Below, in pieces: positions 1,486-35,857 of a stretch of 42,064 nt of DNA (positions are counted from its first letter, which is position 1; each line of letters begins with the position of its first letter). The position numbers and the translations under genes were made by a program. Origin of the DNA: an uncultured Opitutales bacterium (GTDB taxonomy: Bacteria; Verrucomicrobiota; Verrucomicrobiia; Opitutales; Intestinicryptomonadaceae). Location: positions 1 to 42,064 of the forward strand of contig CALXNZ010000021.1 of the NCBI GenBank assembly GCA_944389885.1, in the 5' to 3' direction. The notes below the pieces were generated by a model. That model was not told where the DNA came from, did no database searches, and saw only the letters and a list, made by a program, of their open reading frames with translations.

Positions 1486-3336
1486 ATGAAGAAATTAAGC
1501 CTTATTTTTGGAGCTTTCCTTTTAATTGCATGCCAATTTGGCGCATATGCTGCGACATATTATTTATACGTTCCGGGATCTGGAGAAACGCGCGAAGCTT
1601 TGTGGACCGACAGCAGCATATGGTATGCGGATACGCCGACCTCGAGCGAGCCGGTGGGAGGCGGATTTTACGCGGGGATGTCGGATTTGGACAAAGTGGA
1701 TTTCTTTGGCACTTCGGCTACGCAATCCTACTCTATAACTTTGAATACCGATGTTTCAATCGGTGGGTTTGTTATGGATCAGGTTTCGCCAAGTGTCGAA
1801 ATATATATGCAAGGCACACTGCCTGATTTAAGCGATGCCACTCTTACCATTGACGCCAATGGAACATCTACCTCAAAAAGTTCTCCATATAACTTTATAA
1901 CGTATAGGTCAAAATTGGGATCAGAGACCCATAGGAGCCTTAGCTTTTACGGCGGTACTGTCCACCTCACGGGGCTGTCTCAAGACGGATACGGATACAT
2001 TCAGGTCGCATTTAACGACAATGCAAAGGGGAATCCTTTGTCCATCACTTTTGACAGCGCCCTATTGAGCGATTCAAACCTGATTTTAAAGGGCGATATA
2101 GACCCGTCGCGTTTGCCTGAATCAAGGAACTATACGATAAATTTGAATGGAAAAACCGATATAGGCGTTGAGTCCGGCGGAGTGTGGACATACAAAAATT
2201 TGATTGTGGACGACCATTCAATTATTGCCGATAAAGGTTTGGGCTTGAATGTTGTAGTGGGAAAGGACGGAGTTGTAAATGCCTCCACTTTTACTACTGG
2301 AAACAATACCGTCACGACAATAAACGGCACAATGCGCCTTCATAAAGGCTCTACAGATACGTCTTCGGAGTCTGGGGTCACGCCTCTGCTTGTTGAAACT
2401 GGGTCAACGTTGACTGTGGACGGCGGGACTATTGAACTTGTGGGAATCCCTACGGCTTCGCCAAATTACGACGCGTATTTAAAATCGGGTTCTGTTGTAA
2501 ATGTGCTAAATGGAGGTAAAATAGAGTCCGGAGCCAGAATAGCGGGAGAAAATTCCACGTTTAATATATACGAAGGCTCAACTATTTCCGCCGCTTATAC
2601 GCGTTTTTTCTTGGGTATGAACGTTAATCTTTCAGGCTCGATAAACCTGTCGGGCAACTTCAAGTTCGATAGCAGCACGGCGGATCTCCAGTCTTTGCTC
2701 ACGGTTAGTTCAGGGGCGAGCATTTCGGCAACAAATATAGAAATGCTCAATTACGGCTCTATGCTTGTAGAAAGCGGGGTCGCCGAGGGCGCAATACAGC
2801 TGTCTCAAAACTATGTGAAATTGGGAGGCGTAGGAATATCCGCAACCGATAGGACTGTCGTAAATTCCATAACACTGAATAGCGCGAACGTATTTGAGGG
2901 CAGGAGCGGTTCCGCAGTCTACATATCGCTTTCCGGCCTTAATGGGCGCGCGATGCTCAATGTCAATGCGGATCAAAAATTCGGAAAGTTTTCCTTCGAG
3001 AATACGGGGCAGATTCTATTCTTAAATTTGGGCGAAAATCTTGGGATTCTTGAATTGGATTCTCTGTCGGGAAATTCAATGATAGCTAACGGCGGCAGCA
3101 TTGTTATAGACGGCTTCCAAAACGGCCTAATACATTTGGCGTCATACGAATCCGGCGAGGAGTCTTTTATAAGTTCACTCAATGGAGATTGGGAGGATTT
3201 TGAATTTGTAAAGGATACTACCGGCTTAGGTGGATATTGGCTTTCGGCAACTCAAATACCGGAACCGGCTCTCACGTCTATTATTTCCGCAATTTGTGTT
3301 CTGTTAATGTTCGTTTATAAGAGAAAGAAATCTTAA
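1486..3336 (+). CDS. PEP-CTERM surface protein with beta-strand-repeat passenger
   Basis: Secreted protein of 616 residues, predicted to be exported by Sec and anchored or processed by an exosortase. It begins with a signal peptide (MKKLSLIFGAFLLIACQFGAYA). It ends with the tripartite sorting signal: IPEP, a hydrophobic helix of about 17 residues, then a basic tail (KRKKS). The body is rich in Gly, Ser, Thr and Asn, with short motifs such as GSTLTVDGGTIEL and GSVVNVLNGGKIESGA that resemble autotransporter-type beta-helix repeats. The start is set at 1486 because GAAAGG lies 7 bases upstream (1473-1478) and the signal peptide starts there; the TTG at 1426 would add a non-signal extension. The C-terminal 35 residues and an internal VAEGA segment match the protein at 8925-10832. 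Its ligand or structural role is unknown. Confidence 0.85.
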   Translation: MKKLSLIFGAFLLIACQFGAYAATYYLYVPGSGETREALWTDSSIWYADTPTSSEPVGGGFYAGMSDLDKVDFFGTSATQSYSITLNTDVSIGGFVMDQVSPSVEIYMQGTLPDLSDATLTIDANGTSTSKSSPYNFITYRSKLGSETHRSLSFYGGTVHLTGLSQDGYGYIQVAFNDNAKGNPLSITFDSALLSDSNLILKGDIDPSRLPESRNYTINLNGKTDIGVESGGVWTYKNLIVDDHSIIADKGLGLNVVVGKDGVVNASTFTTGNNTVTTINGTMRLHKGSTDTSSESGVTPLLVETGSTLTVDGGTIELVGIPTASPNYDAYLKSGSVVNVLNGGKIESGARIAGENSTFNIYEGSTISAAYTRFFLGMNVNLSGSINLSGNFKFDSSTADLQSLLTVSSGASISATNIEMLNYGSMLVESGVAEGAIQLSQNYVKLGGVGISATDRTVVNSITLNSANVFEGRSGSAVYISLSGLNGRAMLNVNADQKFGKFSFENTGQILFLNLGENLGILELDSLSGNSMIANGGSIVIDGFQNGLIHLASYESGEESFISSLNGDWEDFEFVKDTTGLGGYWLSATQIPEPALTSIISAICVLLMFVYKRKKS

Positions 3337-3418: not shown

Positions 3419-4504
3419 ATGAATAAGAAATTATCTTGTACCTTAATAGGCTTTATTCCCTTTTGCGTCTTTGGTCAAACCACCATTACCGGAGACTATG
3501 TTGTTCCGGAGATGGGTGAGGAAATCTCTTCCACTTTGACTATTGAGACAGACAACGCTAAAACTTACGAGATGACCGGCGGGTTTTACACTCTTATGAA
3601 TGTGACTACTACCGAAGAATCAAGGGTTCTTACTGCCAATAGCGATTATAAATTTAATACTAAGCTCATTCTTAGTGCTTCAAGTTCTATTACTGGCGTT
3701 TCATGGCAAGTTCTGTACGCTGCTCCAGGCAAGTCCGTCACTATTGCCGACCTCGATACTTCAAGCATGAATATGGTGGGGAGATCCGGCATGAAATTTA
3801 TAAGCACCAAAACATCGGATCAAAGCCAGTATTCTAATTTTTATGTGGGTACTACCGATACTTCAACTTTTTCGAAAAAACCTATTCAAGCTTCCAATAG
3901 CAATTATGAGGTGTGGTTGAATTATGTGAACTTTTACCACAATTCAAGCGTTGATACAGTCTATCATTACGTTCATTTCCAGTTTGGTTGCAATTTTATC
4001 TGCAATAACGATGCATCTTTCGGCACTATAGCTGTGCGCGAAACGTATGGTCATAAAAATGTATATTCCGCTGCCGACGCTTTTTCCGGACGTATAAGTA
4101 TGAATGGAAACAATGTTTACACCGATAACTTGTTCTTTAATCCGCAGAAGAATGTATATTGCGACTTCTTTATAGACTATGGCGTAAATTCTGATGCCCA
4201 AGAATTTGTAATATCAGCGCTGACCGATAGTGGGGCAGATTATTGTACTATAGATATGTGCAGTCTCATTATAGAGAATTTTGGAGCAAATGACAGCTTT
4301 TTGGTAAAGACAAAGCTCGACGAAAAATATCTTTCCATTCTGACGATAAACGGTTTCAGTGCTGACGATATAATTGAGGAACAGATAGTTGGCGGGAAAT
4401 ATGACGGATATTGGTCGTATTCGGCAATTCCCGAACCGGCATGGTTTGCGGCGATTTTTGGAGCGGCGGCCTTAGTGGCGGCATTGCGCCGGAGAAGTAG
4501 ATAG
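3419..4504 (+). CDS. PEP-CTERM surface protein (shorter, divergent)
   Basis: Secreted protein of 361 residues. It has an N-terminal signal peptide (MNKKLSCTLIGFIPFCVFG) and a C-terminal exosortase sorting signal: IPEP, a hydrophobic stretch (WFAAIFGAAALVAAL) and a basic tail (RRRSR). The middle is beta-rich with many Thr, Ser, Asn and Tyr residues, and contains no catalytic motif I recognise. It follows the preceding PEP-CTERM gene by 82 bp and has its own terminator, so it may be co-transcribed or separately promoted. I chose the ATG at 3419 because the signal peptide begins there; the TTG at 3383 is upstream and overlaps a promoter-like TTGACA. No Shine-Dalgarno sequence precedes the ATG. 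Function unknown; the surface location is inferred from the sorting signal. Confidence 0.8.
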   Translation: MNKKLSCTLIGFIPFCVFGQTTITGDYVVPEMGEEISSTLTIETDNAKTYEMTGGFYTLMNVTTTEESRVLTANSDYKFNTKLILSASSSITGVSWQVLYAAPGKSVTIADLDTSSMNMVGRSGMKFISTKTSDQSQYSNFYVGTTDTSTFSKKPIQASNSNYEVWLNYVNFYHNSSVDTVYHYVHFQFGCNFICNNDASFGTIAVRETYGHKNVYSAADAFSGRISMNGNNVYTDNLFFNPQKNVYCDFFIDYGVNSDAQEFVISALTDSGADYCTIDMCSLIIENFGANDSFLVKTKLDEKYLSILTINGFSADDIIEEQIVGGKYDGYWSYSAIPEPAWFAAIFGAAALVAALRRRSR

Positions 4505-5220: not shown

Positions 5221-7158
5221 ATGCGTTTCGTTATGAATATTAAAAAATTATTTTTGTTGATGTCGTTGCTGCCTATTTTTACGGCGCCGGCATTTTCGGC
5301 CAAGATTGAGTCGCGTTTTGGAGTATGCTGCCACCCCGTCCGCAACCATGAATATCCTATGCATGTTAAAATGTTCGACGGCGTTAAGGATTGCGGAATA
5401 AAAATTGTCCGTACCGATATGGACTGGGGCCCGATAGACGCCGGCGGTGGATTTTACGATTTTGTGCGCTTCGACGAAGTCTTTAATAACGCTTTGGATA
5501 GGGGAATATCCTTGCTCGGAATAATGACGGGAGTTCGTTCAAGTAAGGAATGGGCTGTAAACGCAACGGAGAAATGGCAAAATTATCTTACAGCTACAGC
5601 GGCGCATTTTAAAGGCAGGGTTGACGATTGGGAAATAATAAACGAGGTCGATTGGGGAGATTGGCTGAAGGTCAAATATAATAACAACAATAAAGAGCTT
5701 GGGGCCGCCTACGCCAAACTCTTGAAAGCGGCCTATGCGGCCGTAAAGAAGGGCAATCCCGACTCCCGCGTGCTTTATAGCGGAGTGGCGCTTATGAACG
5801 GCCCTTTTATAGAGGAGACCTTTAAGGCCGATCCCGAAATAGGAAAAAATTTTGATGTGATGAATATCCATAAATACTACGGGTTCGAGCTCCCGGAATA
5901 TGCGCTTTCGGACTCCATGAAGAAGCTGAAAGAGCTAATGGCAAAATACAACATAGACAAACCCATATGGCTGACTGAGACTGGCTGCAATACCGCCCCC
6001 CTTCAACAGACTGTCGTAAAGGGCATACGCATGGCTCTGGAAAAGCTTGGCATAGGGATAAACAAAGACGAGATTGCCGTAATATTCGACGAATCCGAAA
6101 ACTATTCGAGCAGAATGTACACCGATTGGGTATCGCAAGCATTCCCCGAAATAAAGCGCTTTAAAAGAATAAAACTTTCCGAGATTGAAAACCTCGACCC
6201 CAAAAAGGTAAAAGCTGTACTCCTGCAATCGAGGGCGATTTTCCCGCGAAAATATCTCAATGCGCTCTTGTCTTATATAGGCGAAGGCGGAACAATAGTA
6301 TCGCCGGACGATATTCCCTTGGCGCGCGACGGCATTCTCGAGGAAAATGGAAAATATATGACAAAATCGTACGGCAATGCGGGGGCAGAAATGTTGCATT
6401 TTAAGGTGAGCACTCCCTGGGAGCGCGAGCACAATAAAGATTTTAGCCTGCCCAGGGATTTTACCAGAGGCTTTGAAGCAGGCGAGGGCTTTGAAGATTT
6501 AAAACCTGAGGGAGTCTATGTGTCGTATGTAATAAGCGATTCCCTCTTGCAGGAAAACGATAAAATGTATCCGATACTCGTGGCCAATCATGGCGGGAAA
6601 AAATACATTCTCGGCGCCCTTATAAAATATGACAGCGTATTTAAAGGCAATGCCATCGTCTTTGCCCCAATATTGAAATCTAACGGCTCCGAAGAGTATC
6701 AGGGAAAACTATTGCCGCGGTATATGCTCACCGCTCTTGCCACGGGAGTTGAAAAAATATTTAATTATAGCTACCACTCAAATGGGCTTGTGCCAGATGC
6801 CGAGGGGCACTTTGGCATTTCGCGCTATGATTGCTCCTATAAGCCGGCATGGTATTCCTATAAGACCCTCATTGAAATGCTCGGCGAGAAGTCGAAACCC
6901 GTAATGACTTTTGACGGGAACGTGGTTCTAACGTCGTGGACTCGCGTGGAGGACGGCGCAAAAGTTTGGGCCGTTTGGAAACTTCCGGAGCTGAAGAAAG
7001 TAAAGGTTAAGTTTGCGGTGAAGGGCGAAATAAAAGAAATGAAAAACTGGCTGGGGAAGAATCAAAGAAAACCAAAAGGCGATAGCTTTGAACGTTTCCT
7101 CGATTCGGGGCCACTGTACTTGGTCGGGCCTGAAGCCCTCGAAATAACCCGCCTATAA
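5221..7158 (+). CDS. Secreted TIM-barrel glycoside hydrolase (GH39-like, clan A) with inserted domain
   Basis: Probable retaining glycosidase with a signal peptide (residues 1-27, ending APAFSA). The clan-A catalytic pair is visible: an acid/base glutamate in DWEIINEVDWG (E142) and a nucleophile glutamate in IWLTETGCN (E253). A typical last barrel strand (ATGVEKIFNYSYHSNG, 507-522) and PKPAWY-like segment (YKPAWYSYKTLIEML) come only after about 220 further residues. That insert (about 283-500) has a Rossmann-like pattern (IAVIFDESENY, VKAVLLQSRAIF, LLSYIGEGGTIVSPDD) resembling the class I glutamine-amidotransferase-like domains of some glycosidases. The final 90 residues look like a small beta domain. 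The substrate is unknown; family GH39 is the closest match I can name, not a firm assignment. The start could also be the ATG at 5233; neither has a Shine-Dalgarno sequence. Confidence 0.75.
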   Translation: MRFVMNIKKLFLLMSLLPIFTAPAFSAKIESRFGVCCHPVRNHEYPMHVKMFDGVKDCGIKIVRTDMDWGPIDAGGGFYDFVRFDEVFNNALDRGISLLGIMTGVRSSKEWAVNATEKWQNYLTATAAHFKGRVDDWEIINEVDWGDWLKVKYNNNNKELGAAYAKLLKAAYAAVKKGNPDSRVLYSGVALMNGPFIEETFKADPEIGKNFDVMNIHKYYGFELPEYALSDSMKKLKELMAKYNIDKPIWLTETGCNTAPLQQTVVKGIRMALEKLGIGINKDEIAVIFDESENYSSRMYTDWVSQAFPEIKRFKRIKLSEIENLDPKKVKAVLLQSRAIFPRKYLNALLSYIGEGGTIVSPDDIPLARDGILEENGKYMTKSYGNAGAEMLHFKVSTPWEREHNKDFSLPRDFTRGFEAGEGFEDLKPEGVYVSYVISDSLLQENDKMYPILVANHGGKKYILGALIKYDSVFKGNAIVFAPILKSNGSEEYQGKLLPRYMLTALATGVEKIFNYSYHSNGLVPDAEGHFGISRYDCSYKPAWYSYKTLIEMLGEKSKPVMTFDGNVVLTSWTRVEDGAKVWAVWKLPELKKVKVKFAVKGEIKEMKNWLGKNQRKPKGDSFERFLDSGPLYLVGPEALEITRL

Positions 7159-7590: not shown

Positions 7591-8748
7591 ATGGCAATTA
7601 GAGACTTACAAAAGAGAAAATTTCTAAAGAGCGCGGCGGTATTTGGAGTTGTAGGTGGAATTACCGCCTTTTCTAAACAGTCGTTTGGCGCGGATAACGC
7701 CCCGAAGAACATTGCGAGCGTATTTAATGTTCGAGATTTTGGGGCAAAAGGCGACGGTAAAAATTCCGATACTCTCTCAATACAAAATGCCTTAAACGCC
7801 GCCGGCGCAGTGCAAGGTACGGTCTATTTTCCCTCCGGGAGGTATTTGTGCTCAAAATTAAAACTACCCGCACATACTACTATGTTGGCGGAACCCCAGT
7901 GGGGATATGGGCGAAATGCCGGTGCAATATTGCAACTCGAATCGTCGGATGCCGATTGTGTGGTTGATATTACCGCTTCTTATGCCGGTCGCATAGCAGG
8001 TCTTTCGATATGCGGGCTTGGTGGGGGCATAGTTAAATCTCATGGCATTTATCTAAATAACGATAAAGGGTATAGTAAAAGAGAAGACGCGTGTGTAATA
8101 GAAGATTGTTGCGTGAGCGGCTTTTCCGGTGACGGTGTGTATCTCAAGCGCGTATGGCTCTTTATCGTGCGGCGCAACATTTTTAAGGGCAACGGCGGTG
8201 CGGGGATTCGCGTGCAGGGTTGGGACGGATTTGTGAGCGATAACCAATTATCAGACAATGGCGAAGGCGGATTTGTCGGAGAGCATGTCACTGCCACTGT
8301 AATGTTTACGGCAAACCGTGTGGAATGGAATAGGGCCTGCGGGTTGGATATTCCATCGGGGGACGCTTGGAATATTACGGGAAACTGTTTTGATAGAAAT
8401 TGGGGGCCAGGCTTGCGAATGTGCAATGCCTCGGATTCCGCTGTCACAGGAAATGTTTTTAGAAGATGCGGCAAAGATGCTTCTAAACTTGGAGATGAAT
8501 ATTCGAGCCAAGTCTATCTTGAAAATTGCAAGGGAATTTCAGTTACCGCGAATTCCGGAGCTGCAGGCAAGGACGACGGCGGGAAAGGTATTATTACGCC
8601 TAAATATGGCTTTTCCACAAAGAATCTCCAATATTGCGCCATAACCTCCAACACAATGTTCAAGGGATTTACAGATAAGTTTTTCAATGAGCTTTCGCAA
8701 AATAACGAATGTTCGTTAAAAGACAATATAGGTACATCGTGCAAATGA
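7591..8748 (+). CDS. Secreted right-handed beta-helix protein (pectate-lyase-3 type)
   Basis: Exported protein of 385 residues from the PF12708/GH28-related beta-helix superfamily, probably acting on or binding polysaccharide. The family N-terminal signature VFNVRDFGAKGDGKNSDT (about 44-61) is followed by VYFPSGRYLCSKLKLPAHTTM (the motif for the first coils). Later NxF/NxV repeats (NIFKGNGGAGIRV, NQLSDNGEGGFVG, NRVEWNRACGLDI, NCFDRNWGPGLRM, NVFRRCGK) mark successive helix turns. The N-terminus (KRKFLKSAAVFGVVGGITAF) resembles a Tat signal but has KR-K instead of a strict twin arginine. I cannot assign catalytic residues, so lyase, hydrolase and non-catalytic roles are all open. No Shine-Dalgarno sequence is seen. 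Confidence 0.78.
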   Translation: MAIRDLQKRKFLKSAAVFGVVGGITAFSKQSFGADNAPKNIASVFNVRDFGAKGDGKNSDTLSIQNALNAAGAVQGTVYFPSGRYLCSKLKLPAHTTMLAEPQWGYGRNAGAILQLESSDADCVVDITASYAGRIAGLSICGLGGGIVKSHGIYLNNDKGYSKREDACVIEDCCVSGFSGDGVYLKRVWLFIVRRNIFKGNGGAGIRVQGWDGFVSDNQLSDNGEGGFVGEHVTATVMFTANRVEWNRACGLDIPSGDAWNITGNCFDRNWGPGLRMCNASDSAVTGNVFRRCGKDASKLGDEYSSQVYLENCKGISVTANSGAAGKDDGGKGIITPKYGFSTKNLQYCAITSNTMFKGFTDKFFNELSQNNECSLKDNIGTSCK

Positions 8749-8924: not shown

Positions 8925-10832
8925 ATGAAGCGCGAATTATCTTTTATATTACTCGGTTCTATTGCCGCATTTTCTGCCGCTCAAGCGGAAGTTTTTCTTA
9001 CTCGTGACAATTCTGACAGCGAAGTAAATTGGTCTTTGGCTTCTTGGTTTAATGGTACTTATGAGGAATTTAAAGAAACTGATCTTATCCCCGGATATAA
9101 GAACGAGGAACTTGGAATAGATACAACTGATGCAAGTGTGCAATTTCCAGGCGGAACCAACAATGCAAAATTGCAGCTTAATATAGATGACAATTATACA
9201 ATAGGTAAATTCATATCTCAATATGGCCAGTTCAGTGTAAATATGAATATGACTGGAATGTTGGACGAAGGAGCTTCGGATAGTTCCATTACTATAAAAG
9301 CAACGGATCCCGCCGCCAGCACATATACATTTATGGAATTTGGCACGAGCATGCGCATTAAGGTCGAACCTGCAGAAATAAAATTTACCGGAGGTACGGT
9401 CAATCTCGTGGGGCTCAACGAAGGTAGCAACGCCAGAATTACAATTCGCAACGGCGGCAACGGACAGGACGGTGGAATAAAGGGCGTGACTCCGTCGGTA
9501 CTCACTTTTTCGGAAACTAACGTGCTAAATGTCGAGAGCGCCCTGTATATACAGGGAACAAATAATTCTTCAATCCTTCCTGAAAATTTAGATGCCACGA
9601 TAAATCTTAACGGAACTTTAAATGTGCGCAAAAACACAGGAACTGCCGAGTCTCCCGAATATACATACTATAAACTCACTATCGCCTCGTGCTCAAGTTC
9701 CGTTGGAATAGGTTTGAAGGCGAATATGACGGGTACAACAAATGCCCTCTCCTTTCAACAGGACGCCAATACGCAGGTAAACCTTACCGGATTGCTGAAC
9801 ATCACTGGCTCAAATGAGACAACAAATGATACGGGAGCGGTCTTTATTCTTTCCAAAGGCGCCGAATTTAATGTTTTGGACGGGGGAAGAGTTGAAATGG
9901 CTACGCAATCGCAAACATCTTATGCAGACGTTTATATGTATGCTGGCTCAACTCTTAACATAGAAGACGGTGGTGTCTTTTCCGCCGGAGGACGTTTTGG
10001 ATCGGCTTATTCAAGTTCCGGCAACTCCGTAATAAATATAAAACAGGGCGGCACCCTTTCCGTGCCGTATTTTAGAGTTTCGGCAGGTACCATTGTAAAT
10101 CTTTACGGAAAATATATCTCCGAAGACAATCATATGACATATATCGCCGGAGGTACTTCAGAGCCAGCTAAGAGCTATCTTAACGTTTATGCCGGAGCAA
10201 CAGGCGATGCGTGGGTATACCAAGTAGTCTATAATGGCGAAATAAACATATACGAAGGAGTCGCGGAAGGTGCTTTAAGGACGCGTTCAAATGTAATTAT
10301 CTTGGATAATAATGGCGCGACCATAAATTTCTATTCTTCAAATCCGTTCAAAGGAAATGCTGAAAGCAGCACTCAAAAAGATATAATGGTTCAAAATTCG
10401 GTTGGAGACGGATATTTGAATATTTACGCAAACCAGGATTTTAAATGCCTGGATTATAGCGTCAAGGCCGTGACCGATACGATTGATAAAATTACAACCA
10501 CTATTTTTATAGGCGACGATGTCACCCGCATCAATTTTAATAATCTCGCCAACAATAAACTTGTAGCTCAGGCCGAGGGGAATATGGAGCATTGGCTCAT
10601 AATTGATAATTTCCGCTTAGAACTCATACATGTTGACAATCGCGACAGCCAAATAGATTTCTCGTATATAAAATCTTTGGACGGAGATTGGGTGGATTTC
10701 TGCTTTGTTGAGGATACTAACGGCGGATATTGGCTTTCCGCAACGCAGGTGGTAATTCCGGAACCTTCGCTTGTGGCTGCGTTCTTCGCGCTTGCGGCGT
10801 TAGGGTTTGTTTGCTTTAAGAAAAGAAAATAA
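8925..10832 (+). CDS. PEP-CTERM surface protein, paralogue of the first
   Basis: Secreted protein of 635 residues. The signal peptide is at residues 1-21 (ending FSAAQA). The C-terminal exosortase signal consists of IPEP, the hydrophobic segment SLVAAFFALAALGFVCF and the tail KKRK. The body is rich in beta-strand repeats with Asn, Thr, Gly and Ser (GGTVNLVGLNEGS, GSTLNIEDGGVFSAGG, INIKQGGTLSVPYF). It shares the module GDWxDFxFVxDTxGGYWLSATQ directly before the sorting signal with the protein at 1486-3336. It also shares KFTGGTVNLVGL-type and EGVAEGAL-type segments, so the two are paralogues about 5.6 kb apart. The function is unknown; surface adhesion, S-layer-like or matrix roles are possible. 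It ends in a strong terminator. Confidence 0.85.
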   Translation: MKRELSFILLGSIAAFSAAQAEVFLTRDNSDSEVNWSLASWFNGTYEEFKETDLIPGYKNEELGIDTTDASVQFPGGTNNAKLQLNIDDNYTIGKFISQYGQFSVNMNMTGMLDEGASDSSITIKATDPAASTYTFMEFGTSMRIKVEPAEIKFTGGTVNLVGLNEGSNARITIRNGGNGQDGGIKGVTPSVLTFSETNVLNVESALYIQGTNNSSILPENLDATINLNGTLNVRKNTGTAESPEYTYYKLTIASCSSSVGIGLKANMTGTTNALSFQQDANTQVNLTGLLNITGSNETTNDTGAVFILSKGAEFNVLDGGRVEMATQSQTSYADVYMYAGSTLNIEDGGVFSAGGRFGSAYSSSGNSVINIKQGGTLSVPYFRVSAGTIVNLYGKYISEDNHMTYIAGGTSEPAKSYLNVYAGATGDAWVYQVVYNGEINIYEGVAEGALRTRSNVIILDNNGATINFYSSNPFKGNAESSTQKDIMVQNSVGDGYLNIYANQDFKCLDYSVKAVTDTIDKITTTIFIGDDVTRINFNNLANNKLVAQAEGNMEHWLIIDNFRLELIHVDNRDSQIDFSYIKSLDGDWVDFCFVEDTNGGYWLSATQVVIPEPSLVAAFFALAALGFVCFKKRK

Positions 10833-17788: not shown

Positions 17789-17867
17789 ACTTAAACAATC
17801 GGAGCGTAATAGCTAAATATAATTTTTAATTTACGCTTTTGAAATAATTGTGTATTCTGTAAGAGTT

Positions 17868-19178
17868 ATGAATAATAAATTTGCCGCCTTAGTATTACCA
17901 ATATTCCTATTGCCCTTTTTATTTTGCGCGTGCAGAAGCGTTGACTCTTCCGCGGCAGACGTTGCAATGGAGCCCGCAGAAATGCTTGAAGCCCATGGCG
18001 AACTGGCTATGGGTACAAAGCCGTTTCAGGGAATATCGAGCATAGCTGCAAGCAAGACGGGTAAAAGAATATTTTTGGCTTGGTATGGAAACGGGAAAAC
18101 CGAATGCCCGGACAATTACATTATGGTAGCGTACGGCGTCGGGAACGAATGGAAGAATAAGGTGGACATGGTGGTTCGTTCTCCGCATGTGGGAAAAGTG
18201 CGGCTTTTCGACCCCTCGTTGTGGAGGGCTCCTGACGGTTCGATATGGCTGTTTTGGGCGCAGTCAAGCGGGGAATATGTGAATAAGGGCTGGCTTTGGC
18301 ATAAAGAGCCTAATCTTCGCGGACAATGGGATAGGAGGGGCGGAGTTTGGTATAGCGTATGTAAAAATCCCGAAGCTGAAAAACCCGCATGGAGCGCGCC
18401 GCGCCGCCTTTGCGACGGCGTGATGATGAATAAGCCCATAGTTCTTAAAAACGGAAAATGGGCCTTCCCTGTATGCAAGTTTCAGATGGAAAACATCAAC
18501 GACCTCGATTCTTCCAATGAGGGCGCAATACTTTATGTATCAGATTCAGATGCTAAAGACCCGAAACTTGTGAACTGCGTGAAAATACCGTTTGTGCCGT
18601 TTACCGAACACATGTTTGTTGAAAAACTCGACGGCTCTATATGGCTGCTCTCGCGCACGCAGCCCGATTGGACGGTGTCAAGGCAGGGAGCTAAAAGGAG
18701 TTCGCAAATAAGCTACGGCAACGACGGCATTCTCGAGGCGTTCTCTCAAGACGGCGGCAAGACTTTTGGGGAAATTAAGGCTTCCAAAATACCCCATTGC
18801 GGGTCGCGCTTCCACATATCGAGATTGAAGTCGGGGAATTTGCTGTTGGTAAAGAATGACGCCGACGACGCCCAATGGCTCGCCGGCAAACCGCGCGGCC
18901 CGGAGAATCTGCGCTCTTATCCGCGCAAGAAGATAATGGCCTATCTGTCGCGCGACGACGGCAAAACATGGGAGGGCGGTTTGGAAATAGACGGGCGCGC
19001 CGACGTCTCGTATCCCGACGCCGACCAGGACGTCAACGGCGATATATACGTCTGCTACGACCATTCGCGCTACGGCAAGCGCCAAATATGCGTGGCAAAG
19101 ATAAGGGAATCCGATATTCTTGCAGGTAAATCCGGTTCATCGAAGCAATATTTCCAGATAGCAAATGAGCGCCCATAA
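17868..19178 (+). CDS. Sialidase-like beta-propeller lipoprotein (BNR_2 type)
   Basis: Predicted surface or periplasmic lipoprotein of about 436 residues with a six-bladed propeller of the sialidase superfamily (PF13088). The signal peptide ends in a lipobox-like PFLFCACR, with C22 as the probable lipid site. Asp-box-type repeats are SQDGGKTFGE and SRDDGKTWEG, and the family segments FDPSLWRAPDGSIWLFW, NKPIVLKNGKWAFPV and SYPDADQDVNGDIYVCYDHSR are present. The canonical FRIP arginine motif of GH33 is not present, so true sialidase activity is uncertain and another exo-glycosidase or lyase role is possible. I use the ATG at 17868, with AAGAG (17861-17865) just upstream, rather than a GTG at 17850. 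A canonical sialidase is encoded separately at 28444-29652. Confidence 0.78.
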   Translation: MNNKFAALVLPIFLLPFLFCACRSVDSSAADVAMEPAEMLEAHGELAMGTKPFQGISSIAASKTGKRIFLAWYGNGKTECPDNYIMVAYGVGNEWKNKVDMVVRSPHVGKVRLFDPSLWRAPDGSIWLFWAQSSGEYVNKGWLWHKEPNLRGQWDRRGGVWYSVCKNPEAEKPAWSAPRRLCDGVMMNKPIVLKNGKWAFPVCKFQMENINDLDSSNEGAILYVSDSDAKDPKLVNCVKIPFVPFTEHMFVEKLDGSIWLLSRTQPDWTVSRQGAKRSSQISYGNDGILEAFSQDGGKTFGEIKASKIPHCGSRFHISRLKSGNLLLVKNDADDAQWLAGKPRGPENLRSYPRKKIMAYLSRDDGKTWEGGLEIDGRADVSYPDADQDVNGDIYVCYDHSRYGKRQICVAKIRESDILAGKSGSSKQYFQIANERP

Positions 19179-22882: not shown

Positions 22883-23770
22883 ATGGGCAACGCAGAATTT
22901 AAGAGGGAAAATCGGCAAAGGAGATCCGACGTCTTGCTTGAGACCTTTGCTTGGCTGTGTGTCTTTGTGGCATTTGCTCCGGCAGCCTACTGGCTATGGG
23001 ACGCTCTCTCCCATAGCAGGCAGTTGCGCGATGCCCTTGTCATATTGGCGTCGGGAGCTGTGGCGGTCGCCCTTGAGGGCGGCGTTAAGTTCCATGCCCC
23101 AAAATTTAATTTTCCAAGCATACTCTGTTTGGGGGCTGCATATACGCTATTCCTCTTGGCTCCCAACTTTGGCATTGGCGCAGCTTTTGCGGTCTTGGCG
23201 GGGCTTTCTGCGGCCCTCGTGTCGTTTAGCCTGGCTTGTACCGACAAACCGCGCTATTCATGGGCTATCGGAGTTTCGTTTTATGTTTTTACTATTCTTT
23301 CGCTTTTGGCGAGAATGTTCGACATGCCGCTAAGGGTATGGGGCGGCTTTGTGGCATCTAAAATCCTGAACCTTTTTGCCGAAACTTCCAGTTTGGTACT
23401 AATGCGCGGAGCCGAACCTCAAATCATACTCCAAAATGAAGGGCGGCCATTCGTCGTGGCGGCCGAATGCAACGGTTTTGGCATAATATCTTCCGTTCTG
23501 TTAATAGGAATTTTTATGGCGGTATTTATGCGCGGAATCGCATTGTGGGGCAGGTTTCTTATCCCTATAATCGCCGTTGCAATAGGATTTTTTGCAAATG
23601 CGGTGCGCATGGTTTGCATAGTGGTTGCAGCCCCATATGTAGGAAATGCCAATTATGATCTCATGCACGAGATCTTCGGGTATTTTTGGTTTTCAGTTGC
23701 GGTTATATCGGTGATATTGCTTTGCTTTAAGGTCTTTCCTCGAGCCTCCGCTCCGAAAGAAAAAAATTAA
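22883..23770 (+). CDS. Exosortase/archaeosortase family transpeptidase
   Basis: Multi-pass membrane cysteine transpeptidase that recognises PEP-CTERM signals, cleaves them and probably attaches the protein to a surface carrier. It has 295 residues with about eight hydrophobic segments. The three catalytic residues of the family are in the expected order: Cys196 in AAECNGFGIISS, Arg242 in FFANAVRMVC and His262 in DLMHEIFGYFWF. There is no EpsI-type extra domain, and no exopolysaccharide genes are next to it. Its likely substrates are the three IPEP proteins encoded at 1486-3336, 3419-4504 and 8925-10832, and perhaps others elsewhere. Orphan exosortases far from their targets are normal in this group. 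The subtype cannot be fixed from the sequence alone. Confidence 0.9.
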   Translation: MGNAEFKRENRQRRSDVLLETFAWLCVFVAFAPAAYWLWDALSHSRQLRDALVILASGAVAVALEGGVKFHAPKFNFPSILCLGAAYTLFLLAPNFGIGAAFAVLAGLSAALVSFSLACTDKPRYSWAIGVSFYVFTILSLLARMFDMPLRVWGGFVASKILNLFAETSSLVLMRGAEPQIILQNEGRPFVVAAECNGFGIISSVLLIGIFMAVFMRGIALWGRFLIPIIAVAIGFFANAVRMVCIVVAAPYVGNANYDLMHEIFGYFWFSVAVISVILLCFKVFPRASAPKEKN

Positions 23771-24309: not shown

Positions 24310-26100
24310 ATGATAGATCCTAAAACAGTAAAGAACAAGGCACTTGTGGCTTGGGTGGACCAAATAGCGGCTCTCACCACACCTGAAAAGGTACATTGGT
24401 GTGACGGGTCCCAAGAGGAGGCAAAAGCCCTCTTCGACGCCATGATAGCCAAAGGTGCATGTATAGAACTCAATCAGCAGAAGCGCCCAGGGTGCTACTA
24501 CTTCCGCTCCGATCCGCGCGACGTAGCCAGAGTTGAAGCGCGCACATTCATCTGCTCAAAGAATAAATCCGATGCGGGCCCAACCAATAACTGGATGGAT
24601 CCTAATGAGATGAAAGAGAAACTTAACGGACTCTTTAAAGGCTGCATGAAAGGGCGCACAATGTTCGTGATTCCCTTCAGCATGGGTCCGATAGGAGGCC
24701 CAATCTCGCAGGTCGGAATAGAAATCACGGACTCCCCCTATGTTGTGGTGAGCATGAGAATAATGGCGCGCGTTTCGCCGAAAGTTCTCGAAGTTCTCGG
24801 TGAAAATGGCAAATTTATACCGTGCCTGCACTCGGTCGGAAAACCGATAAATTCGCCTGAGGACGATGTGGCATGGCCCTGCGATCCGGAAAATACTTAT
24901 ATAGTCCACTTCCCGGAAGAACGCTTAATCATGAGCATAGGTTCTGGGTACGGCGGCAATGCCCTCTTGGGTAAAAAATGCCTCAGCCTGCGCATAGCTT
25001 CGGCTATGGGTAAGGACGAAGGCTGGCTGGCGGAGCATATGCTCATTCTCGGTGTGAAAGATCCTAAGGGGAATAAGACCTATGTCACAGGAGCATTCCC
25101 AAGCGCTTGCGGTAAAACGAACTTTGCGATGCTTATCGCGCCAAAGGAACTTCAGAATAAAGGCTGGCAGATAACATGCGTCGGAGACGACATCGCATGG
25201 ATTAAGCCCGGTCCGGACGGCAAGCTCTACGCCATCAATCCTGAAAACGGATTCTTCGGAGTTGCTCCGGGAACAAGCATGAAGACCAATCCCAACGCAA
25301 TGCTTTCCTGCGTAAAGAACTCAATCTTCACAAACGTGGCCCTCACTGACGACGGCGACGTCTGGTGGGAAGGTATGACCGATACTCCTCCGGCCCACTT
25401 GACCGACTGGAGAGGCAATGATTGGACCCCGGAATCCGGCGTCAAAGCCGCGCATCCGAATAGCCGCTTTACAGCGCCAATCGCAAATTGCCCATGCCTC
25501 GACGACGGCGTGGAAAATGCTGGCGGCGTGCCGATTTCCGCCATTGTAATAGGAGGCCGCAGGGCTTCCGGAATACCCTTGGTGTACGAATCCTTCAACT
25601 GGACGCACGGCATATATCTCGGCGCCATGATGGGTTCCGAACGCACGGCTGCCGCCGAAGGAAAACAGGGCGAACTCCGCTCGGATCCCATGGCAATGCT
25701 CCCGTTCTGCGGCTACAATATGGACGATTACTTTGCCCATCTGGTGAAAATGGGTAAGAATCTTGAACAAACCCCAAGATTCTATCATGTAAACTGGTTC
25801 CGCAAAGACGCAGACGGCAATTTCATGTGGCCCGGATTCGGAGCCAATGCGCGCGTTTTGGCCTGGATAGTCCAGCGTCAGAATGGAGAAGCCAAGGCTA
25901 AGGAAACCGCAATCGGCTTCATTCCCAACTATGAAGATATAGATTGGGAAGGCATGGACTACTCCAAACAGCAGTTTGCCGACCTCATGAGCTACGATCC
26001 CAATACGATTGCAGCCCAGCCGCTCAGCGAAGAACTCTTCGACAATCTGCCGAACGCCCTTAAGGTGGAGCGCGAGGCCTTGCTCGAACGCCTCTCGTAA
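24310..26100 (+). CDS. pckG: Phosphoenolpyruvate carboxykinase (GTP)
   Basis: GTP-dependent PEPCK of 596 residues, interconverting oxaloacetate and PEP. In fermenters it often runs in the carboxylating direction. The kinase-1a P-loop FPSACGKTN (about 263-271) contains the reactive cysteine found in GTP-type enzymes. Other family blocks are [52 protein letters not shown] and [19 protein letters not shown]. The length matches GTP rather than ATP enzymes (about 530-540). AGGA (24299-24302) precedes the ATG by 7 bases. The codon use is that of a highly expressed gene. It ends with a strong terminator. Confidence 0.96.
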
Positions 26101-28443: not shown

Positions 28444-29652
28444 TTAAAGTTCTTTGGGAACTGCAATCGTGGAAAATGCTATTTCCTCTATAGAACTCTT
28501 TACACCGCGCTCGTAGATTATTCCGAGTGTGTGTTCGTCGATGAAGACGGTGTCGGAATATCCCGACGGGGAATCGCATGTGAGCATTCCCGGAGTCCAT
28601 GCGCTTTTCGATGAAAAATTTTTGGAGAAGTTTTCCAGATATTTTTTTGAGTCGGCAAAGCGGAGCGTCATATTTACGCGCCTCGCTGTGTCGGCCGGAT
28701 TAGAAAATGCGAGTATGCTCGAATCTCCTCTGGGAAAAGATGTAAAAGACGCCTCGCATATGGGCTCAGGCAGCGCCGGATCGGGTATTGGATTTCCCCA
28801 TGTCCTGCCGCCGTCCCGGCTCATCGCCACTACCCTGAATGGCGTCTTTCGGGAACCGTCGGGATTGCGCCCGTGAATTCTCATATTTATTGCGATTGTA
28901 TCGGAATCAATCTGCGCAATCTGGCTTTCGTTGGCGCCGTCATATGCCACAAAGTTTCCGCGTTGCCATGTATTGCCGCCGTCGTCGCTGAATATTGCCG
29001 TAGCCCAATACAGGAATGGCACTGAAGTGGCGGTCGCCACGGGGCATACTATGCGCCCGTCAAATTTGCCTCCCTCTATTTGTATTGCCCCGGACGGGCC
29101 TATTGCAAACCATGTCTGTTCCTGAAGCTTTACTTGCTGGGTTATTTGGCGAGGCTCTTCCCAGGTATTTCCGTTGTCGCGAGAGCGTTTTATAAAGGTT
29201 CTGCGCATGTCTTTTGCAGTTCCTGACAGTATTCTTTTTTCAGTATCGCAGGCGAGAGTTTTATTGTATATGAGAATGAGGTCACCGCTTCTTTTGTCAA
29301 CTATGGGAACGGGATTTCCGCAAGAATCCCCGCCGCCGTCTGCCACTATTTCTATTGGAGTCCACGTCTTGCCGCCATCGGAGGATTTTCTCATGGCTAT
29401 GCTTATCCTTCCGGAATCTTTAGAGTTGTCCTTCCTCGCCTCTGCGAAAGCTGCGATGCTGCCGTCGGCGCAGCGCACTATTGCGGGGATTCGGAATGTG
29501 TGGAATCCAATATCCCCCCGTTTAAAGAGTATACATTCACGTTTTATCGCGGCGTCTTGCTCCGCATGGGAACTTTCGCAAAAGGAAATGGCGAAGAAAC
29601 CAAGTATAAGTAGAAAAAACCCAGCGCGATGAAACTTTTGTTCAATCTCCAT
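28444..29652 (-). CDS. nanH: Exo-alpha-sialidase, GH33
   Basis: Secreted sialidase of 402 residues that releases terminal sialic acids from glycoconjugates. The full catalytic set can be seen: the FRIP arginine (R54, FHTFRIPAIV), the acid/base Asp (D79 in KDSGRIS), the Glu of NESQIAQ (E242), a second and third arginine (R258 in NMRIH, about R325 in TARRVNMTL) and the nucleophile Tyr (Y365 in SGYSDTVF). Four Asp boxes are present: SSDGGKTW, SRDNGNTW, SDDGGNTW and SRDGGRTW. The signal peptide covers about residues 1-30. It belongs to a minus-strand run with the nuclease upstream (51 bp) and the unknown secreted protein downstream (11 bp). No sialic-acid transport or nan catabolic genes are in the window. 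Confidence 0.93.
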   Translation of the reverse strand: MEIEQKFHRAGFFLLILGFFAISFCESSHAEQDAAIKRECILFKRGDIGFHTFRIPAIVRCADGSIAAFAEARKDNSKDSGRISIAMRKSSDGGKTWTPIEIVADGGGDSCGNPVPIVDKRSGDLILIYNKTLACDTEKRILSGTAKDMRRTFIKRSRDNGNTWEEPRQITQQVKLQEQTWFAIGPSGAIQIEGGKFDGRIVCPVATATSVPFLYWATAIFSDDGGNTWQRGNFVAYDGANESQIAQIDSDTIAINMRIHGRNPDGSRKTPFRVVAMSRDGGRTWGNPIPDPALPEPICEASFTSFPRGDSSILAFSNPADTARRVNMTLRFADSKKYLENFSKNFSSKSAWTPGMLTCDSPSGYSDTVFIDEHTLGIIYERGVKSSIEEIAFSTIAVPKEL

Positions 29653-33094: not shown

Positions 33095-35857
33095 ATGTTT
33101 ATGAAGAAAAAATTATTGGGAATATTTTTTGTCTTGTTTGCAAGCTTGAGCATTTGGGCGCAAGGGGCGAAACCCGAAAGCCTCACGGTTGGGGAATTCT
33201 TCTCAAATCCGTTGGGCATGAATCTTGAGAACATGCGCTTCTCATGGAAATTGCCCGAGGGTAGGGACGTAAAACAAAAAGCCTATCGCGTGCAGGTGTC
33301 AAATTCAGCCGATAATTTCGATTCCGCGTTGATATGGGACAGCGGAAAAGTGGAGAGCGATCAAAGCGTGTTTATCCCATTCGGGCGCGAGGTTCCGTCG
33401 GGACAAAAGTATTATTGGAGGGTAAAAGTGTGGTATGCCGACGGCGGCGAATCTGAATGGTCGGACATTAATAATTTTGAAGCCGGTTTGACAAAGAATT
33501 CCGATTGGAAGGCAAAATGGATCTCAACAAGCGAACCAATCAACCATCAGGAGCTTGATATTCTGCGGAACAATGGAAAAATAGATAAGGTTCCAAGAGA
33601 CAGCGTCCAACCCACATACTTGCGGAAAGAATTTGAAACTTCAAAAGACATCAAAAAAGCCCGCCTGTATGTAGCTTCAAAAGGCCTATTCCAAGCGTAT
33701 GTAAATGGCGAGAAAGTAGGCGACGACTATTGGGGCACAGGTTGGACCGATTATGGCACCCGCATACAGTCAAATACCTACGATGTCACCAAGCTGCTTG
33801 GAGACGGTGCAAACGCCGTGGCGGCTATCGTGGCCGACGGCTGGTATGCCGGCCGCATAGGCTGGACCCATCAAAAGGGCCTCTACGGGTCGGTACCCCA
33901 AATTCTACTGCAGCTTGAAATAGAATACGAGGACGGCTCAAAGGAATATTTGGTCTCCGACGAAACTTGGAAATGCTCCTATGGCCCTATTGTATCCTCC
34001 GATATTTATGACGGCGAAACGTACAATGCCAACCTCGAGATGGAAGGCTGGAATACGGCGGATTTCGACGATTCCTCATGGAAACAGGCAAAGGCTTATC
34101 CATTAGACCAGAAAGTCCTAATAGAGCCGCGCCGCAGCCAGCCCATAAGAATTATTCAAGATATGCGGCCTATAAGCGTGAACGAAGTCGCGCCGGGGAA
34201 ATTCGTGTTCGACTTCGGCCAGAATATGGTCGGCTGGGTATCGCTCAACAATATTCCCATGTCCATGGGGCAGTGCGTAAAGATTCGCTTTGCTGAGATG
34301 TTGGAAAAAGACGGCAATCTCTATACGGAAAATTATAGGGACGCAAAATCCACAGACTATTACATATCAAAAGGCGGCAAGGCTAATTGGTCGCCTCTGT
34401 TCACCTATCATGGATTCAGATATGTGGAGTTGAGTGGATTCCCGGAAGGCACAAAGCCGTCTATCGATTGGGTCATAGGCAGGGTAATGCATAATGATAT
34501 GCAGCCAACCGGCACCTTTGTCTGCTCTTCCGCCCTCGTAAACAAGCTTCAGAATTGCATAATATGGGGGCAGAAAGGCAACTTTTTCTCCACTCCTACG
34601 GATTGCCCGCAGCGCAATGAACGCTTGGGGTGGCTCGGAGACGCCCAAGTATTTATCCCAACTGCGGCGTTTAATATGAATGTCGACGCCTTCTTCAACA
34701 AGTGGTGCGTGGACGTTCTCGACGCCCAAACCCCGGCAGGAGCGTATTCGCATGTGGCTCCGGACGTCCTTCTAAACGCCAGAGAGAACCCGTGCCCGGC
34801 GTGGGCATCCGCCGGCGTAATATGCCCCTGGGAAATCTACCAGGCTTTTGGCGATTTGAAGATTCTCGCCCGCAATTATGAAGGAATGAAAAAATGGGTC
34901 GAATTCCAAAAAAGCCACACTAAGAATCTCGTTTACGGCGAAGTCGGGCACGGCGATTGGCTGCAGCCGGGAGCTTTCCCGATAAGCGATTGCCCGAAAT
35001 CCCTCATAGGCACTGCATACTTCGTGCGCACTACCGACATAGTCGCAAAAGCCGCAGATATACTCGGCAAAAAGGACGACGCCGAACGCTTCCGCAAGCT
35101 CGCCTCGGAAATCCGCGCGGCGTTCAATGCCGCTTTTGTAAAGGAGGACGGAACCATAAAGAGCGATTGCCAGACGGCTTATCTCTTGCCTCTGGCTTTT
35201 GAAATACTGCCTAAGGAAATGGAAAAGAAATCTTTTGCGAAACTCTTGGAAGCTCTTAAACGGGATAAAATGCATCTGAATACCGGATTTTTGGGAACGC
35301 CGCTCTTGAATCCCGTGCTGACTAAATTCGGAAGAATGGATTTGGCGTATCAACTGCTGAATAATCAAACTTATCCGTCTTGGCTGTACCCCGTGTTGCA
35401 GGGCGGCACCACTATGTGGGAGCGTTGGAATAGCTATTCCCACAAGGACGGATTCGGAGACGCCAGTATGAATTCCTTTAACCACTACGCGTATGGAGCC
35501 ATTGGACAGTGGTTATACAAAGACGTCGCGGGTTTGTGGTACAATCCCGACAAGCCTGGCTACAAGAGCGTGTTGTTTGCCCCGAAACCGGGTGGCGGCA
35601 TTACGTTTGCCTCGGCGACCCACGAAACTCCTTACGGCACTGCGCGTTCGGTTTGGAAAACCTCCAATGGAGTTATGGAGTGGACTGTGACTATACCTTC
35701 AAATTCTGAAGGAAAGCTCGTATTCCCGACGGATAAAGAGAATTCCATTAGAATAGACGGCAACCCGCTCGAAAAAGGTAGCCTTAAGAAGGCCGCTTGC
35801 GGAAGGCCAACTATTACTCTCCCAAGCGGGACATACCAGATACTATTAAAGCTTTAA
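33095..35857 (+). CDS. Alpha-L-rhamnosidase, GH78
   Basis: Secreted inverting alpha-L-rhamnosidase of 920 residues acting on pectin- or gum-type glycans. The signal peptide covers about 1-22 (ending SIWAQ). Then follow an N-terminal fibronectin-like domain (about 28-130), a jelly-roll domain (about 137-340), a second beta-domain with YVFDFGQNMVGW-like sequence (FVFDFGQNMVGWV, 370-382) and the alpha/alpha-barrel catalytic domain. The general acid lies in CPQRNERLGWLGD (E509) and the base in MWERWNS (E776). The C-terminal beta-sandwich (about 835-920) closes the fold. The alternative start two codons downstream (33101) is possible; GGGG lies just upstream of 33095. A bipartite terminator follows. 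Confidence 0.93.
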   Translation: MFMKKKLLGIFFVLFASLSIWAQGAKPESLTVGEFFSNPLGMNLENMRFSWKLPEGRDVKQKAYRVQVSNSADNFDSALIWDSGKVESDQSVFIPFGREVPSGQKYYWRVKVWYADGGESEWSDINNFEAGLTKNSDWKAKWISTSEPINHQELDILRNNGKIDKVPRDSVQPTYLRKEFETSKDIKKARLYVASKGLFQAYVNGEKVGDDYWGTGWTDYGTRIQSNTYDVTKLLGDGANAVAAIVADGWYAGRIGWTHQKGLYGSVPQILLQLEIEYEDGSKEYLVSDETWKCSYGPIVSSDIYDGETYNANLEMEGWNTADFDDSSWKQAKAYPLDQKVLIEPRRSQPIRIIQDMRPISVNEVAPGKFVFDFGQNMVGWVSLNNIPMSMGQCVKIRFAEMLEKDGNLYTENYRDAKSTDYYISKGGKANWSPLFTYHGFRYVELSGFPEGTKPSIDWVIGRVMHNDMQPTGTFVCSSALVNKLQNCIIWGQKGNFFSTPTDCPQRNERLGWLGDAQVFIPTAAFNMNVDAFFNKWCVDVLDAQTPAGAYSHVAPDVLLNARENPCPAWASAGVICPWEIYQAFGDLKILARNYEGMKKWVEFQKSHTKNLVYGEVGHGDWLQPGAFPISDCPKSLIGTAYFVRTTDIVAKAADILGKKDDAERFRKLASEIRAAFNAAFVKEDGTIKSDCQTAYLLPLAFEILPKEMEKKSFAKLLEALKRDKMHLNTGFLGTPLLNPVLTKFGRMDLAYQLLNNQTYPSWLYPVLQGGTTMWERWNSYSHKDGFGDASMNSFNHYAYGAIGQWLYKDVAGLWYNPDKPGYKSVLFAPKPGGGITFASATHETPYGTARSVWKTSNGVMEWTVTIPSNSEGKLVFPTDKENSIRIDGNPLEKGSLKKAACGRPTITLPSGTYQILLKL

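Follow-up and report, generated by a model that had tools for sequence, protein, structure and literature searches.

Exosortases are usually viewed as acting one enzyme per signal. In the phylum Verrucomicrobiota, Verrucomicrobium spinosum was found to encode 65 PEP-CTERM proteins and two EpsH ORFs, while EpsI was not found (Haft et al., 2006, PMC1569441). The presence of two exosortases in a single verrucomicrobial genome has thus been known since 2006. The PEP-CTERM/EpsH-like system of Akkermansia muciniphila comprises 23 predicted substrates, nine of which were seen by mass spectrometry, and one EpsH-like gene has been named in this species (PMC4960237). Deletion of a cyanoexosortase affects PEP-CTERM-linked traits (Parrett et al., 2025, PMC12188702).

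The DNA analysed here (hereafter the window, 42,064 nt) covers contig C21 in full; the assembly comprises 2.21 Mb in 27 contigs and is 96% complete. Among named relatives, the source genome is closest to uncultured Opitutales and to the isolate Puniceicoccaceae bacterium Marseille-Q1082. The window carries an exosortase gene that is the lesser of the two in the genome, as well as three PEP-CTERM genes that are a small sample of a genome-wide set.

The window exosortase and its subfamily

The gene and its most regular neighbour are located as follows:

22883-23770, + strand: exosortase of 295 aa, single-domain, placed by its sequence in an unnamed 'ECNGF' subfamily (PF09721, TIGR04178, triad)
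24310-26100, + strand: PEP carboxykinase gene, recurrent neighbour of the window exosortase within the genus (synteny clusters)

The window gene encodes a real exosortase of the PF09721/TIGR04178 superfamily, as the initial annotation had proposed from the letters of the ORF. The frame is intact over its 295 residues, and homology to exosortase HMMs is present: the protein scores 58.5 bits with PF09721 (E 8e-16; cut-off 25.7) and 45 bits with TIGR04178, the generic NCBIfam signature (cut-off 23), and so passes both, while no EpsI domain is found in it. The three residues previously placed in the expected motifs are indeed there, with C196 in AECNGF, R242 in NAVRM, and H262 in MHEIFGY. Within the subfamily, none of the three varies in alignments of 20 and 49 sequences, and the same holds for Asn197, Gly198, Phe199, Asn239, Tyr258, Glu263, and Gly266; the aligned sequences share 20-47% identity, and the triad with its flanking residues is still invariant at this distance. 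Every window-type member is an intact frame. The AlphaFold2 model made with the 49 sequences (pLDDT 92.6, pTM 0.88) is a helical bundle in which three short strands directly precede Cys196, and this confident model with its long hydrophobic helices predicts a polytopic membrane protein. No solved structure resembling the window exosortase was found in the PDB, either by sequence or by Foldseek.

Membership in a named subfamily was considered and rejected, all scores being under the cut-offs. The search against subfamily models suggested in the initial annotation turned out negative for XrtA-XrtX (NCBIfam): the best score of the window protein is a partial match to XrtW (NF038142) of 30.8 bits, for a cut-off of 425, and the XrtA and EpsH models (TIGR03109/TIGR02602) were not reached at E<=1. 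Two further window-type members scored against the named-subfamily cut-offs did not pass any of them either, and a scan of the 49 members lists E-values without cut-offs. A window-type profile gives 184-383 bits for its own members and at most 55 bits for all other exosortases collected. In a quick maximum-likelihood tree, in which the closest relatives of the window protein rather than the protein itself were rows and long branches among the other rows are uncertain, the window type is one clade (SH-aLRT 90) and the type of the second exosortase of the genome (C2 type, see below) stands apart (SH-aLRT 97). Judged from its sequence, the window exosortase belongs to an unnamed 'ECNGF' subfamily that is nearly confined to the order Opitutales. 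This order-specific subfamily, which no NCBIfam subfamily model claims (June 2026; window protein and two members scored), may be new, and no paper on it was found in a partial check of the literature.

The window type is present in all 12 of the readable other members of the genus, in one of the family's two other genera, and here and there across the order, with Cerasicoccus frondis, C. maritimus, and C. arenae as named carriers. One further genus member, a one-contig assembly (G010), was left out as unreadable: no query gave any match in it, not even the pattern controls, and it is not countable as a genome without exosortases. In an even sample of 240 genomes across the phylum, 18 carry the window type and 17 of these are from Opitutales. 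Short second exosortases of several relatives were tried as additional members and rejected: those of G045 and G065 obtained a window-profile score of 17 and none, respectively, and no ORF at the loci concerned in G037, G055, and G069 reached E 1e-3.

The PEP carboxykinase gene lies beside the window-type gene at 10 of 13 genus loci (window included), and, at part of the genus loci, genes for an aminotransferase and a topoisomerase recur as well, along with a small conserved gene. The PEP carboxykinase marks a stable chromosomal position of the window type, and no functional link is implied. In the synteny clusters, no neighbour gene was found to be conserved outside the genus and no conserved small tailed protein was found to adjoin the window type. 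A conserved partner gene for the window exosortase was rejected, with just the PEP carboxykinase and a few housekeeping genes recurring, all at the genus level. Since its neighbours are not conserved beyond the genus, the window type is a vertically kept stand-alone gene and not part of a cassette. The earlier observation that no exopolysaccharide (EPS) genes adjoin the exosortase stands, and it extends further: neither EpsI nor EPS genes were found beside the window type, in the window or around the subfamily relatives.

PEP-CTERM proteins in the window and in the genome

The candidate substrates in the window and the carbohydrate-related genes around them are:

1486-3336, + strand: PEP-CTERM protein 1, 616 aa, signal peptide, tail IPEPALTSIISAICVLLMFVYKRKKS (translation, BLASTP)
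3419-4504, + strand: PEP-CTERM protein 2, 361 aa, signal peptide, tail IPEPAWFAAIFGAAALVAALRRRSR
5221-7158: weak glycosyl-hydrolase-core ORF, between the PEP-CTERM genes
7591-8748: pectate-lyase-like beta-helix ORF, between the PEP-CTERM genes
8925-10832, + strand: PEP-CTERM protein 3, 635 aa, signal peptide, tail IPEPSLVAAFFALAALGFVCFKKRK
17850-19178 and 28444-29652: BNR/sialidase-like proteins, clear hydrolases
33095-35857: GH78 alpha-L-rhamnosidase, clear hydrolase

Each of the three proteins has a signal-peptide-like N-terminus and a C-terminal tail made of IPEP, a helix, and a basic end, which can be read directly from the translations; their earlier description as secreted PEP-CTERM proteins is correct. 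None of them contains a Pfam domain above cut-off, and none passes the cut-offs of PF07589 or TIGR02595, while further copies in the genome score above the PF07589 cut-off. Protein 2 obtains 15.2 bits with PF07589 in the genome search (cut-off 20.7) and matches the tail profile of its own genome with E 2e-13, its own tail being part of that profile; protein 3 is slightly below the cut-off of TIGR02595 (14.8 bits for 16). Protein 1 is distantly related to protein 3 (28% over 584 residues), both being paralogues from a family that is repeated in the genome. The statement that these targets lie among glycoside hydrolase genes holds for the weak core ORF and the pectate-lyase-like ORF, which are located between them, but not for the clear hydrolases (GH78 and the two BNR/sialidase-like proteins), which are 7-30 kb away. 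The two BNR/sialidase-like proteins and the GH78 enzyme together represent a glycan-degrading gene set of the gut type. The role in holding or capturing glycans that the initial annotation suggested for the three surface proteins is a tentative one, given their lack of Pfam domains above cut-off and the mere two carbohydrate-related ORFs, one of them weak, that separate their genes.

Tails of this kind are found across the genome, far above chance. The pattern ATHCCNGARCCN has 88 DNA matches, versus 18 for the reversed control, and 44 of the 88 lie about 24-29 codons before a stop and are followed by a hydrophobic and basic tail, one of these being doubtful. A profile derived from 39 tails retrieves 51 places in the genome, including the three window proteins, a search that is circular for the source genome and not for others. 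The IPEP/VPEP tail pool of this 2.2-Mb genome therefore amounts to about 43-51 members. At such a density, 0.97 tails are expected in the 42-kb window and 3 are seen (Poisson P=0.075 for three or more); the tail nearest to the exosortase is 12 kb from it. The initial annotation had paired the window exosortase with the three local substrates, and this pairing was rejected: the three tails are a near-chance sample of the genome-wide pool, so that proximity is uninformative on which enzyme acts on them.

A survey of 462 kb (21% of the genome) yielded 15 PEP tails and one degenerate IPESS tail. No other tail type sharing this architecture was seen to recur in these 462 kb, and a separate tail class for the window exosortase was rejected on this basis. 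On contig C2 of the source genome (G000), the otherwise typical tail at L328:11028-12395 has IPESS for IPEPS, i.e., a degenerate or variant signal. PEP-CTERM genes also occur in this genome as tandem pairs or triplets (C2:67928-72106, C5:26055-26945, C6:97289-98441, and C9:32413-34660), with near-identical tails and diverged bodies, as expected from local duplication.

The second exosortase of the genome and other types in relatives

The initial annotation also regarded the window exosortase as an orphan. That it is the only exosortase of the genome was rejected following the identification of a second, EpsI-linked enzyme:

Contig C2, 258552-259553: C2 exosortase, motif EACSG, PF09721 139 bits

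An EpsI-like gene is located immediately upstream of the C2 exosortase, and the contig ends 0.5 kb past it. The existence elsewhere of an exosortase better matched to the IPEP signals had been put forward as evidence that would count against the role of the window gene, and the C2 enzyme comes close to this, with 139 bits for PF09721 versus 58.5 for the window protein. At most loci inspected in the genus and the family, C2-type genes adjoin an EpsI-like gene, whereas window-type genes never do; in some species, the C2-type loci additionally contain sugar transferase and nucleotide-sugar genes. EPS-type genes are found elsewhere in the source genome, namely a Poly_export gene (C9) and a sugar transferase gene (C5), and are not beside the window exosortase.

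Other arrangements exist among the relatives. In G012, the C2-type exosortase is present in two copies, each with its own EpsI-like gene (L134/L185). A third exosortase type was seen in G009 (L201:8670-13886) and G004 (L202:8756-13983), where the loci include two small paralogues (160-165 aa) ending in a hydrophobic stretch and a basic tail, with a PrsT-like TPR protein and glycosyltransferases nearby. These loci resemble a small dedicated sorting cassette.

Co-occurrence of exosortase types and tails

The distribution of exosortases and tails was compared in 87 readable relatives, a genome being tail-positive if it has at least 5 IPEP-type tails. All 32 genomes with the window type are tail-positive, versus 18 of the 55 without it. 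At the family level, tails occur in 10 of 10 families with the window type versus 4 of 18 without (Fisher P 1.5e-4). The C2 type shows a similar association with tails (P=7e-5 at the family level), and both types are present in 30 of the 32 window-type genomes. The association between the window type and the tails could thus be due to its co-occurrence with the C2 type.

Genomes with a single type are informative here. Seven relatives in which the C2 type is the sole exosortase have 8-64 tails; the C2-only genomes G054 and G068, both 98% complete, have 64 and 51, respectively. In a sister genus (g3), the window type is missing from three of three genomes and near-identical tails are kept, e.g., IPEPSTYAAIFGALALAFAAYRRRK. 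As these genomes are 91, 83, and 79% complete, it is unlikely (about 0.3%) that missing sequence explains the absence of the window type from each of them. Two members of the genus of the source genome, G002 and G007, have the window type alone and carry 21 and 37 such tails, respectively (e.g., IPEPSEIAALFGVAALVFALRRRRG); their assemblies are incomplete (91% and 80%), and about one missed C2 gene is expected over the genus. The C2 type is therefore sufficient for tails, and the window type perhaps as well, while in genomes with both the data single out neither as required.

Possible roles of the window exosortase

The explanation that we favour, with evenly divided confidence, is that the window gene encodes an accessory, EpsI-independent exosortase that draws, like the main enzyme, on one common pool of IPEP tails. 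It would be a polytopic inner-membrane cysteine protease/transpeptidase, acting on Sec-exported proteins held in the membrane through their C-terminal IPEP-helix-Arg/Lys tail. Cleavage would take place near the PEP motif and be carried out by Cys196, with His262 and Arg242 assisting, after which the proteins would be released or transferred to the cell surface, possibly by anchoring to a glycan or lipid. The IPEP/VPEP pool, including the three tails in the window, would be common to the window enzyme and to the main, EpsI-linked C2 exosortase, with some division of labour between the two. Catalysis, cleavage site, and surface anchoring are proposed here by analogy with exosortases of the literature (PMC1569441; PMC12188702), and it is plausible that the window exosortase cleaves IPEP tails at all. 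That one tail pool is served by two unrelated exosortase subfamilies, with and without EpsI, in one cell is a more tentative idea, which we are inclined to doubt. If true, it could mean, for instance, two fates for the same tail, release versus anchoring, or two acceptors.

The main rival to an accessory enzyme is a dedicated one, whose one or few special targets would bear a different or degenerate tail, the C2 enzyme handling all ordinary IPEP proteins. The processing of ordinary tails in C2-only genomes is consistent with this, as is the presence of EpsI at most of the C2-type genus loci inspected and never with the window type; other Opitutales exosortases, such as the third type of G004 and G009, also look dedicated. 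However, no small tailed protein was found conserved beside the window type, and the survey of 21% of the genome revealed no further tail class; we consider such specialization unlikely, if worth keeping in mind. The roles might also be reversed, with the window exosortase as the main IPEP enzyme and the C2 enzyme tied to exopolysaccharide assembly, a genome-wide extension of what the initial annotation had in mind. The 21 and 37 tails kept by the two genus members that have the window type alone point in this direction, together with the sugar transferase and nucleotide-sugar genes found around the C2 type in some relatives, but the same tails remain in C2-only genomes and PF09721 is matched better by the C2 type, making this reversal improbable. 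Finally, failure to reach the named-subfamily cut-offs and the lack of a partner gene conserved past the genus would suit a relic, or a family member of other chemistry for which sorting tails are no longer the target. Such a fate is very improbable for a protein whose triad and adjoining residues do not vary among sequences of 20-47% identity, and whose relatives are all intact frames found only in genomes with tails.

Comparison with known systems

As a local finding in the window, the exosortase is ordinary. At a broader scale, Opitutales, a large order with both environmental and gut members, appear to keep an extra EpsI-free exosortase only in PEP-CTERM-rich genomes, beside an EpsI-linked main enzyme. 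Genomes with two enzymes would allow a clean genetic test of signal sharing, and this in cultured, named species (Cerasicoccus).

With EpsH-type XrtA (TIGR03109/TIGR02602), the window enzyme has in common the PF09721 fold family, the Cys/Arg/His triad, and many scattered PEP-CTERM proteins; it differs in being encoded without an EPS cluster and without EpsI, and in its 'ECNGF' motif, versus 'EACSG' in the C2 enzyme. XrtW (NF038142), the best partial match among the named subfamilies (30.8/425), is a model of 494 positions. The likeness to A. muciniphila lies in a gut verrucomicrobial PEP-CTERM proteome, whereas the window subfamily is essentially limited to Opitutales in the phylum sample (17/18). 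V. spinosum resembles the source genome in belonging to the same phylum, in its dozens of PEP-CTERM proteins, and in its two exosortases; EpsI was not found there, whereas the source genome has an EpsI-like gene by one of its two enzymes.
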